Assembly: GCA_013619145.1 (NCBI GenBank)
Contig: JABXKR010000279.1
Coordinates: 1 to 60,585 of the forward strand
Direction: 5' to 3'
DNA length: 60,585 nucleotides
Source: Psychromonas sp.
GTDB lineage: Bacteria; Pseudomonadota; Gammaproteobacteria; Enterobacterales; Psychromonadaceae
The translations under genes and the position numbers were made by a program. Numbering within the stretch: position 1 is the stretch's first letter; the number at the start of each line of letters is the position of its first letter. Of this stretch, positions 57,609 to 60,585 are shown in pieces. Under the pieces are notes generated by a model, which made no database searches, had not been told where the DNA came from, and was given only the letters and a program-made list of their open reading frames with translations.

Positions 57609-57640
57609 AAAGCCAGCTAATCTGCTGGCTTTGTTGTATT
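57609..57640 (+). terminator. Terminator of dapB
   Basis: AAAGCCAGC (57609-57617) pairs with GCTGGCTTT (57624-57632), followed by GTTGTATTTTT. The stem overlaps the last codons of the convergent transporter gene, which ends at 57617. Confidence 0.75.
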
Positions 57641-58792
57641 TTTATCACCATAAAACAAATAGATAAAAACCAACGGTATCAGCAACAGGTACAAATTTTG
57701 CAGTTGTTGCAGCGCATCAACAGTGCTGGAGAACAGATAACCAGCAAGAGTAAAAAACAGCACTAGCACAAACTGCGAATAATAACTTTTGCAGATAATA
57801 TAGCGGATCGCTTGCTGACGTTCGGCCAAATCATAAAAGCGTTTATTAAAAGCTAAACGGAAGAAGCTGGTTAAAAAAGCAATAATTAATATTGTTACAT
57901 ACAGATACAATGTGTCACCTTGTAAACTTAACTGCCCTCTTAATAACCATGAAAGTGCATAAGCAAAAACCGCAACAATAAAGATGCGCTGCGCATTGCT
58001 ATGGTCAATGCGTTTTTTAATAATGAAAAAAATAACCGCCAAACAGAGCCCCAAGATCACAATCAACAGCCCTAATTTCAGTAAGTTTTGTTGGGTTAAA
58101 AGATACAGGGATAACAGCCAGAAATAACTTTCTAAAAATAGAAACACGCCATCAATCAAAAAAATAGTTTTCGATTTAAAAGCATCCTGAAACTGCATTA
58201 TTTGTACAAAAGAGAATGCTTTAGGTTGATCCTTTTCCAGCAACTCAACTGCGCTAGCTAAACTGCCTTTTACCATAAAATAACCGAGCATTGACAGGCT
58301 CACATAGAGAGCCAGTAAGATTTTAAGATGCGCCGCATCTAATAAATAACTGCCGATTAATACCCCTAGTTTTAATACTATCACCAGCAAAATTTGAAAA
58401 TTACCAAAGGTATTACCGCTGTTTTTTGTTTCAGTGACACGCTGAAACAGGATGCGTTGCGTTGACCAGTAAAAACAGCCTGCCGCTCCGTTAATCAAAG
58501 CGCCAAGTGATAATAATAACGGCAGATTATCTGCCAATAATAAGCTGACCAAAGCAATCTCAAAGAGGAACGACAGGGCAATAATCAATGACCATTTTGC
58601 AGTGGCACGTAATCTATCCCAGGCAAGCATCGCCATCACAAAACCCAGCGCGGTTAATGCCGTAAAATTGGCGATATCCGCGAGATTTAAGCCTTTATTC
58701 CATAAAATAACGGGGATAAAAATAGGCAGCAAACCAATCAAAAAACCATGTATGCCGGAAAATAGGTAAAAAGTGCGTATTAAGCCTGTCAT
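57617..58792 (-). CDS. MFS-like transporter of the ATP-grasp operon
   Basis: 391 aa with about 11-12 hydrophobic segments and a large loop (about residues 180-205), the major-facilitator layout. It starts MTGLIRTFYLFSGIHGFLIG. The start codon overlaps the stop of the upstream ATP-grasp gene (TAATG), so the two are coupled. An exporter of the product of the two ligases is the simplest inference. No substrate can be read from the sequence. Confidence 0.7.
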   Translation of the reverse strand: MTGLIRTFYLFSGIHGFLIGLLPIFIPVILWNKGLNLADIANFTALTALGFVMAMLAWDRLRATAKWSLIIALSFLFEIALVSLLLADNLPLLLSLGALINGAAGCFYWSTQRILFQRVTETKNSGNTFGNFQILLVIVLKLGVLIGSYLLDAAHLKILLALYVSLSMLGYFMVKGSLASAVELLEKDQPKAFSFVQIMQFQDAFKSKTIFLIDGVFLFLESYFWLLSLYLLTQQNLLKLGLLIVILGLCLAVIFFIIKKRIDHSNAQRIFIVAVFAYALSWLLRGQLSLQGDTLYLYVTILIIAFLTSFFRLAFNKRFYDLAERQQAIRYIICKSYYSQFVLVLFFTLAGYLFSSTVDALQQLQNLYLLLIPLVFIYLFYGDKNTTKPAD

Positions 58793-59700
58793 TAATAGGT
58801 GTCTAACTGTTGAATATCAAGTTGCTCTAACTGATTAAATTCCGCACTGAGATCTTCAGCGATGCCATAGCGAGGAAAAGCATGCATTTTCAGGTAGGGA
58901 CGGGAATTTACCTCTAGAAAAATACATTTTTGCTGGTCGCAATCCGTTTCAATGCCTTTTTCTAAAATCACATCGATCCCTAAAACATTCGCATCAAAGA
59001 GGCGCAAAACGTCTTTAAACAGCTTGTGATTAACTTCGGGGATCAGGGCCTTATCAATAACTCTGACCACCCCACCCGGCGCTAATGAGATACGATAAAA
59101 CAGCGTGACCTGCTCTTTGTCAGCAGGAACCGTTGCCAAGTTATAACCTTGTTTGTTTAAAAAAGTTTGCGTTTGTGAACCTTTTTGTAAGGACGACATA
59201 CAAGGGTATAAATTCATGGTTTCCCGAACTGTATTTTCCCTATCAATTAACTCACTGATCGTGGCCTTGCCATCACCAATAACAAACGGCGCATAACGTT
59301 GTAATACCGAGATAACTTTGCCATTAGCCACCACTACGCGGTAATTATGGCCCTGCAAATATTGTTCAACAACCGTGAACGGCCACCATAATTTAGCAAA
59401 AAACAGGGCGCGCCATAGCTCTTTATAATTATTGATCGGAAAAAAACTGCCGCGTGAAAAACCACTGACATTAGGTTTAACTACCAGGGGAAAGCCGTAC
59501 TGTCTGGCAAATTGAATCGCTTTAAAGGGATTAAAAAAAATCATCCCTTGCGCACAGGGAATATTACCTTTGCTAAAGACGGCTCTGGCTTGCTCTTTAC
59601 TGCGACAACTTTTGCGCACCGCTAGGCTATTATAATTACTGCAGCCATCCATAAAGGTTTTGCTTATCCACGCATAAATTATTTTTTTAAATTGACTCAT
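58792..59700 (-). CDS. ATP-grasp ligase, cyanophycin-synthetase-like domain
   Basis: 302 aa. ATP-grasp features are PLVVKPNVSGFSRG (nucleotide loop, near residue 71), VVEQYLQGHNYRVVVANG, the FVIGDGKATISELIDREN motif found in cyanophycin synthetase-type grasps, and FLEVNSRPYL (Mg-binding Glu and Asn, near residue 265). It would form an acyl phosphate and couple it to an amine. It lacks the Mur-ligase half of cyanophycin synthetase. It overlaps both neighbours (4 and 1 bp). Substrate unknown. Confidence 0.72.
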   Translation of the reverse strand: MSQFKKIIYAWISKTFMDGCSNYNSLAVRKSCRSKEQARAVFSKGNIPCAQGMIFFNPFKAIQFARQYGFPLVVKPNVSGFSRGSFFPINNYKELWRALFFAKLWWPFTVVEQYLQGHNYRVVVANGKVISVLQRYAPFVIGDGKATISELIDRENTVRETMNLYPCMSSLQKGSQTQTFLNKQGYNLATVPADKEQVTLFYRISLAPGGVVRVIDKALIPEVNHKLFKDVLRLFDANVLGIDVILEKGIETDCDQQKCIFLEVNSRPYLKMHAFPRYGIAEDLSAEFNQLEQLDIQQLDTY

Positions 59701-60536
59701 AAAGTGATCTCACTTTTAGTTATCGCTTTTAACAGATGCGCACATTTTAGTTTTTTAAAAAACACCGCTTTAACCGTTTGCGTAGCGGGAATGGTTTTGG
59801 TTACCGCTGCCAGTTGCTGCATCGCAGTTAAAACAAATTTAATTTTCTGCCAAGTTTGCAACTCTTCAACTAACAGCAGCAATGGCATCGGCACAAAAAG
59901 ATTAATTTCAATAATATGAAAGTGCCCTGCAATCAGACTTGCTAATGAATCGGCGCGAACACCATAACGAGCGATACGAAATTGGCCGCAACGCTTAAGA
60001 TGTGACCATATTTTTGTTTGTTGCTCTTTGCTTAACTGCCCTGCCAAATCCTGATAGTAGCTTGTTTGGTTGTAAATCCCGTTAATAGGTAAGGGATCAT
60101 CCCCGCTATTACAGGTTTCTGTAATCGAAAACAGTGCGACTTGCTCAATGTTTTCGCTCTGTGCAATCACAAAAATTTCAAATTCCCGTTTTCCCGGTGC
60201 TGCGCTTTGAATTAAATAAAAAGGATGCCTTGTGGTGCGTGCCTGGCGGTGACTATTGAGTTGTTGCAGGTTATCAGCACGGATAATACCTTGGGAATTT
60301 TGTCCCCATTCCGGTTTAACAAAAACAGGGTAGCTATCGGGATCCCTTTGTCCAAAATCCATAAACTGCTCAAGCCGCCACTGCTTGGGGATGCGCTGAT
60401 CCATATCCAACTTAGAAAAGAGATTACGTTGATCATTGAAATATGGCGCATTTAGTTGAAAATATTTCCATGGCCCAACCCTTAATCGAATGCAATGCAA
60501 AATATATGAAGCAACCAGTAAGATACGAATTAGCAA
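59697..60536 (-). CDS. Second ATP-grasp-type protein of the operon (TTG start)
   Basis: 279 aa. The start is TTG 60536 because AGGAGG lies exactly 8 nt upstream (60545-60550) and no ATG fits. The ATP-grasp pattern is YPVFVKPEWGQNSQGI (near residue 70) and an acidic metal-site stretch HFHIIEINLFVPMPL (near residue 217). It is more divergent than its neighbour, and some active-site residues are hard to place. The C-terminal part (240-279) is basic. Upstream genes cannot be seen because the contig ends here. Confidence 0.6.
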   Translation of the reverse strand: MLIRILLVASYILHCIRLRVGPWKYFQLNAPYFNDQRNLFSKLDMDQRIPKQWRLEQFMDFGQRDPDSYPVFVKPEWGQNSQGIIRADNLQQLNSHRQARTTRHPFYLIQSAAPGKREFEIFVIAQSENIEQVALFSITETCNSGDDPLPINGIYNQTSYYQDLAGQLSKEQQTKIWSHLKRCGQFRIARYGVRADSLASLIAGHFHIIEINLFVPMPLLLLVEELQTWQKIKFVLTAMQQLAAVTKTIPATQTVKAVFFKKLKCAHLLKAITKSEITL

Positions 60537-60562
60537 ATGATTAACCTCCTCTATCTACTGCC

Positions 60563-60585
60563 CTGTCTCTTATACACATCTGACG
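60563..60585. other. Nextera/Tn5 transposase sequencing adapter
   Basis: CTGTCTCTTATACACATCT (60563-60581) is the exact 19-bp Tn5 mosaic end used in Nextera libraries, followed by GACG, the start of one read adapter. It is untrimmed adapter and not genomic sequence. The true contig sequence ends at 60562. Confidence 0.97.

Follow-up and report, generated by a model that had tools for sequence, protein, structure and literature searches.

The closest described counterparts of the two ligases treated here are enzymes of the ATP-grasp superfamily, in which the roles of the conserved residues are general knowledge. The cyanophycin synthetases CphA1/CphA2 (PDB 7wac, 7lg5, 7ta5) have N-terminal, ATP-grasp and Mur-ligase-like domains in ~870 residues, the bifunctional glutathione synthetase GshF combines a GshA half with a C-terminal ATP-grasp ligase part, and the N-acetylglutaminylglutamine synthetase is a GNAT-ATP-grasp fusion that serves a non-ribosomal dipeptide osmolyte. 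Further comparisons are offered by the D-Ala-D-Ala ligase Ddl and the L-amino acid ligase BL00235 (3vot). The window analysed here, a stretch of 60,585 nucleotides from Psychromonas sp. (GenBank assembly GCA_013619145.1, contig JABXKR010000279.1), carries close to its end three minus-strand genes coding two ATP-grasp proteins (A and B) and a transporter (M). With a probability of about one half, they are the downstream part of a Y-D-A-B-M operon for a small peptide-like metabolite that is made independently of the ribosome and transported by M. The gene set is real and conserved, has no name so far, and looks biosynthetic. The features of the window are the following.

57617-58792, minus strand: M, MFS transporter, 391 residues (MFS_1 over cut-off; invariant charged residues)
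58792-59700, minus strand: B, CphA/GshF-like ATP-grasp ligase, ATP-grasp part only, 302 residues (NCBIfam, alignment, model)
59697-60536, minus strand: A, minimal, divergent ATP-grasp ligase, 279 residues, TTG start (open reading frame (ORF) call, Pfam, alignment, model, fold search)
60545-60550, minus strand: AGGAGG, ribosome-binding site of A (sequence)
60563-60585, plus strand: transposase adapter, which we take to be Nextera, an artefact (exact 19-base match)

A first-pass annotation of the sequence had described three overlapping minus-strand genes, and these are found at the positions it gave: A and B overlap by 4 bp, B and M by 1 bp, and the next gene is 27 bp away. The AlphaFold model of A, computed from a 43-row alignment (pLDDT, the predicted local distance difference test, 90; predicted template modelling score, pTM, 0.87), has an ATP-grasp fold. 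Foldseek matched this model to 382 chains at E 0.001 or better, and D-Ala-D-Ala ligases head the list (E 3e-8, template modelling (TM) score 0.52, 15% identity), and among the 50 matches listed the identity of A to the solved folds is 12-20%. Ddl and BL00235 are among its nearest solved folds; their KP element aligns with A, as does, by eye, the E-x-N element. A differs from them in the shortness of its pre-ATP-grasp segment and stays below every family cut-off, scoring 18.2 bits versus 24 with Pfam Dala_Dala_lig_C and 21.5 versus 245.65 bits with the D-Ala-D-Ala ligase model TIGR01205, whose match starts from residue 63. Residues K74, E118, E120, R190, E210 and N212 are invariant in 43 aligned homologues, together with most of the PVF-KPEWGQN loop. 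The amino terminus forms a helix in the model (residues 2-17) that is hydrophobic by eye.

Protein B matches the ATP-grasp region of cyanophycin synthetase over residues 25-285 (E 1.8e-27), with no match beyond residues 24-286, and in the fold search its model aligns with 7wac at a TM score of 0.76 and 26% identity. Its score on the cyanophycin synthetase NCBIfam model is 150.5 bits versus a cut-off of 850. The three-domain organization of that enzyme is absent from B, which has no N-terminal domain and, being only 302 residues long, no Mur-ligase-like half; it differs from CphA1/CphA2 also in adjoining a second ATP-grasp gene. Likewise, B matches the C-terminal ATP-grasp part of GshF but has no GshA half (97.1 bits, from the ligase part only, against 425 bits), and scores 68.1 bits with the N-acetylglutaminylglutamine synthetase model (cut-off 569 bits) but has no GNAT domain. 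Residues K75, E112, R121, E263, N265 and R267 are invariant in 38 aligned homologues. Both proteins thus display the ATP-grasp fold by model and fold search, the invariant lysine and the metal-binding E-x-N element of the superfamily. Because of these invariant patterns, read with what is generally known of ATP-grasp enzymes, conservation suggests that A and B are probably active ligases rather than pseudo-enzymes. The profile HMM searches and structure predictions proposed in the first-pass annotation returned ATP-grasp proteins that reach no NCBIfam family cut-off, in agreement with its view of A as a divergent ATP-grasp (below the cut-offs of Pfam too) and of B as a cyanophycin-synthetase-like ATP-grasp, here restricted to that region, without the Mur half. 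A known primary-pathway ligase was ruled out for A and for B, no NCBIfam model coming near its cut-off.

Protein M belongs to the MFS transporters, its MFS_1 score of 34.9 bits being just over the gathering value of 33.4; its homologue in locus L049 is below it, with 10.8 bits. Several charged residues are invariant in 14 aligned homologues. The hydropathy of M is that of an integral membrane protein, as expected from the earlier description of a 12-helix transporter, but the number of twelve was not confirmed, a simple scan giving no clean helix count.

The usual operon in close relatives reads Y (coding a YHS-domain protein), D (coding a DoxX-like membrane protein), A, B and M. Y and D precede A on the same strand in 18 of 20 order-level neighbourhoods; L033 and L048 are without a called D, and L048 also without a called M. 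The contig does end upstream of A, as was pointed out before, but this end is an artefact of library or assembly and not biology, since its last 23 bases are the mosaic end/adapter, with an exact 19-base match (chance expectation 0.00). The 19-base core occurs in one of 53 loci, namely at the window's own end (L001). Gene A is nevertheless complete: the AGGAGG-type site and an in-frame TAG (60555-60557) ahead of the TTG show that this codon is a start and not a truncation, and in the gene calls of L031, L033, L034 and L035 the A frame likewise opens here with a leucine-coding (TTG) start. In the same genome, the search with D matches bases 4-468 of another contig, C233, where two genes were located.

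L052:1-486 (C233), minus strand: D of the same genome, running off the contig end
L052:490-945 (C233), minus strand: Y of the same genome, adjoining D

As both stand at the very end of C233, the operon is most likely a Y-D-A-B-M unit split by the assembly, the join itself being what we infer, and the suspicion that partner genes had been cut off upstream proved right. The own-genome Y is placed in the YHS family by alignment, and its homologue in L032 passes NF041384 (YHS domain-containing (seleno)protein) with 149.9 versus 70 bits. One Cys is invariant throughout the family, whose members begin with a hydrophobic stretch; by eye, Y is probably secreted. D is by eye a small membrane protein. 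It is DoxX-like only: the own-genome copy scores 16.6 versus 26.3 bits with DoxX_2, and the Pfam models DoxX and DoxX_2 match one of 24 family members each. No relative of D was found among solved structures. In Psychromonas ossibalaenae (L055:8438-9441), two tandem YHS genes lie ahead of D.

The relatives' loci compared here are the best 80 of 163 stretches encoding an A relative, with one genome per species, and the carriers are, by title, Psychromonas, Colwellia, Moritella, Neptunomonas, Amphritea, Endozoicomonas, Oleispira, Osedax symbionts, Sedimenticola, Granulosicoccus, Desulfobulbaceae and SAR324, groups that are nearly all marine. A tree was computed for 78 A proteins. The gene maps come from a simple longest-ORF caller, so that for relatives the starts and some of the genes called are approximate; in L161 it gave M only, though A was found there by search, and the cupins of L104, L129 and L133 (see below) and some B genes were recovered only by a second, stop-to-stop profile search. 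Same-strand B is found in 69 and M in 67 of the 71 loci with at least 2.6 kb downstream of A. Within 4.5 kb on the other side, same-strand Y is present in 50 and D in 49 of the 68 loci with at least 4 kb upstream, while in two further loci, L121 and L130, Y is encoded by the opposite strand. The gene order is kept in dozens of genomes, hence the arrangement is beyond chance, and the failure of the trio to co-occur elsewhere, which the first-pass annotation had named as a refutation, is not what was seen.

Co-inheritance was followed in genome samples; a single-sequence contig scan with B gave no match, and the alignment of A succeeded as query. A is strong in 32 of 394 order genomes (33 matched, G365 being dropped for a match of 45 residues at E 1e-4), including 17 of 24 among the genomes listed for Psychromonas. 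B is strong in 31 of 388 order genomes (at least 520 bits, the next match having 108 bits), and all 31 are A-positive. The A-positive genome G096 is not among the B matches; its place in the B sample is not shown, its A carries an in-frame TAG, and neither B nor M is seen close to A on its contig (L110). The broken A and the missing neighbours in this Psychrobium metagenome-assembled genome suggest that the operon is decaying in that lineage. In the class sample, A matches 22 of 369 genomes at E 0.001 or better, of which 11 are strong, the own genome included; the other 11 matches, weak and short, were left out of the family count. At E 1e-10, the phylum-wide sample has two positives of 398, the own genome and one genus mate. 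No plasmid match was found for A, nor any relative of A in viral contigs. An anti-phage role was considered and dropped, PADLOC giving no match for the three window proteins.

In the biosynthetic reading, the bond formed, its substrates, the direction of transport and the roles of Y and D would be as follows. A and B would turn carboxylates into acyl phosphates and make two amide bonds, either one after the other or a single one apiece on two partners. On the pattern of CphA and GshF, whose chemistry is general knowledge, B may activate the C-terminal carboxylate of a short peptide and add a small amine to it. M would carry the product across the inner membrane, and D and Y might work at the membrane or on its periplasmic side, where they may be partners of the product in redox or metal chemistry.

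A hint at the nature of the amine comes from distant relatives. A cupin resembling cysteine dioxygenase (CDO) precedes A in 10 of the 80 loci, accompanied in nine of them by a pyridoxal phosphate (PLP) decarboxylase (DEC). Both stand before A in eight of the 68 loci with at least 4 kb upstream, and also in L133. By title, the ten cupin loci are of Desulfobacterota type (L098, L119, L123), of SAR324 (L117), of Sedimenticola/Chromatiaceae (L104, L115, L127, L129, L133), and L111; L123 has the dioxygenase alone, its contig starting within the cupin region. The full set of seven (Y, D, DEC, CDO, A, B, M) is found in L104, L115 and L133; in L104 the decarboxylase frame extends upstream over D, which leaves the order of DEC and D less sure there. 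The CDO profile search led to cysteine dioxygenase type 1 (E 1e-9). The Arg-type signature, by which the type of cysteine dioxygenase is told under the Arg/Gln rule, is found together with the two histidine motifs in each of the 10 sequences examined, a set that does not comprise the L104, L129 and L133 cupins; CDO thus has the histidine motifs and the Arg at the substrate-carboxylate position of a cysteine dioxygenase. For DEC, the nearest solved structures to the L111 protein are GADL1, then CSAD. At the three pocket positions that reportedly govern selectivity in CSAD (a rule attributed to Agnello, 2013), the DEC sequences have W and S in 13 of 13 and, at the third, C (10), Y (2) or G (1), to be compared with F, S, Y in human CSAD and S, N, F in GAD65. 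By this comparison the pocket resembles CSAD more closely than GAD65, with CSAD-like residues at the first two positions throughout; in two sequences the likeness extends to the third, provided that W is equated with F. The dioxygenase subfamily is found in three of 350 class genomes at E 1e-12, all three being A-positive in the class sample; the hypergeometric chance of that overlap is ~2e-5 with 10 positives, bearing in mind that the two class samples may differ. In two of the three, G582 and G649, the DEC-CDO pair is apart from A-B and still side by side (in the third, G716, it lies within the operon), which argues that its link to the ligases is not mere shared position.

Judged from these sequence signatures, the pair points to a hypotaurine/taurine-type unit in the distant relatives. 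It differs from a plain hypotaurine/taurine route in being coupled there to two ligases and a transporter, and it is outside the window's operon. This pair and the genes Y and D, all beyond the reach of the first-pass annotation, give the main leads on the chemistry. In lineages with DEC-CDO, the amine would probably be hypotaurine, made from cysteine by way of cysteine sulfinate; in some lineages, it may be hypotaurine or taurine. In Psychromonas, where no cupin is found in the genomes searched save weak matches in G257, the unit would have to come from elsewhere. A more specific proposal, which we regard as tentative and rather doubtful, is that A and B close the end of a short peptide with hypotaurine or taurine, so that a sulfinate or sulfonate replaces its C-terminal carboxylate, and that M passes the product to the periplasmic YHS/DoxX-like pair.

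Several observations weigh against a peptide-like metabolite operon with such an amine. M could be an importer or a flippase. Four of the 71 loci have no detected M, and two of these no B either; G716 (L155) has D-DEC-CDO-A-B with no M detected. The L117 decarboxylase has GAD65 as its best solved match (278.9 bits, as compared with 255.3 for CSAD), the best NCBIfam model for that of L111 is diaminobutyrate decarboxylase (184.4 versus a cut-off of 900), and single cupin sequences exceed the Pfam CDO_I cut-off in one of three cases. In L162 (G636) the decarboxylase lies directly before A-B-M with no dioxygenase detected. The 27 order genomes searched include 21 of the genus Psychromonas and 23 A-positives; a dioxygenase relative is absent from 26 of them, G257 giving only weak matches, and a decarboxylase relative is present in all 27, mostly distant (G023 closer, E 4e-106). 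The taurine-binding protein family is over cut-off in three of 11 A-positive and one of four A-negative genomes; as it does not track A, taurine uptake is not supported as the missing supply in Psychromonas.

Part of this evidence can be turned towards other products. A and B might instead serve envelope modification, adding amino acids or an amine to a lipid, to a glycan precursor or to Y, with M acting like a flippase. The hydrophobic first helix of A, the secreted look of Y and the membrane nature of D (all by eye), and the D-Ala-D-Ala ligase as nearest fold of A would fit this, but the 21 recurrent gene clusters inspected include no glycosyltransferase or lipid acyltransferase look-alike, and the DEC-CDO pair would yield a small diffusible amine; we consider envelope modification unlikely. 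The relationship of B to the ligase part of GshF brings to mind a low-molecular-weight thiol or antioxidant peptide resembling glutathione, with DinB-like and flavoprotein disulfide-reductase partners. DinB-like genes do occur in 32 of the 80 loci, and a protein with VTT and disulfide oxidoreductase parts is encoded between D and A in L095, L096, L100 and L102. Such a flavoprotein is however found at that spot in those four loci only, the DinB-like protein receives no Pfam name, a cysteine dioxygenase would use up thiol, and a transporter would be unusual at the core of a gene set for a cytosolic thiol, all of which make a thiol product quite improbable.

The decarboxylase could also act on aspartate, one ATP-grasp then joining beta-alanine to an amino acid in a carnosine-like buffer or osmolyte. 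The L111 enzyme matches GADL1 ('acidic amino acid decarboxylase') slightly better than CSAD, and a decarboxylase with no dioxygenase detected is seen in L162, yet the dioxygenase, which is paired with the decarboxylase even away from A-B, would be left unexplained, and the beta-alanine dipeptide is judged very doubtful. Still further from expectation is a graspetide-type ribosomally synthesized and post-translationally modified peptide (RiPP), in which A and B would cross-link a short ribosomal precursor: the model of B does resemble the graspetide ligase PsnB, less well than CphA, but the A-B-M block of the window has no gap for a precursor gene (precursors elsewhere were not searched for) and none of the NCBIfam matches is a graspetide model, so that we give this origin hardly any chance.

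That no named pathway is recognized for the trio, as first noted from the sequence, agrees with the NCBIfam scores below cut-offs and with the open-access literature. There, judged by title and abstract start and with subscription papers outside the search, the gene set is not described. No open-access report was found of an operon with ATP-grasp, YHS domain and MFS transporter, of an ATP-grasp ligase gene cluster for a taurine dipeptide, of a YHS domain together with DoxX, or, by title and abstract start, of hypotaurine with ATP-grasp in a bacterial gene cluster.

Other genes recur around the operon. Besides the DinB-like gene, labelled by eye, a TANGO2-family gene accompanies 20 of the 80 loci; the one member scanned has a TANGO2 score of 46.6 bits. 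The orientation of the DinB-like/TANGO2 pair beside the operon varies: it follows in line in L064, for example, is upstream and divergent in L056, and is downstream and convergent in Moritella. That the pair adjoins the operon in three such settings argues for a functional link between them. The gene between D and A in the four loci of Osedax-symbiont and related Oceanospirillaceae mentioned above codes a 721-residue fusion of a VTT domain and a pyridine-nucleotide-disulfide oxidoreductase (L095 copy scanned). In the Granulosicoccus group (L113, L118, L125, L132), a retropepsin-like protease gene before A and a gene resembling AMP-nucleosidase by eye after M are conserved, and neither Y nor D turned up within 8 kb of A in these four loci. 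On C233, the genes divergent from Y-D (L052:1295-4620) code a secreted protein with repeats that is PepSY-like by eye, a membrane protein resembling cytochrome b, and a pair of response regulator and histidine kinase. Pairs of similar look, again by eye, are found near the operon in L054 and L055.

The five core genes, with two optional precursor genes, form a tight gene set for a putative metabolite pathway. The capped peptide, should it exist, which we think rather improbable, would be a new class of natural product in marine bacteria, many of which are associated with taurine-rich animals. If this is true, a (hypo)taurine-capped peptide would give the taurine-type amines of bacteria a further role in biosynthesis and supply the sea with organic sulfur compounds.

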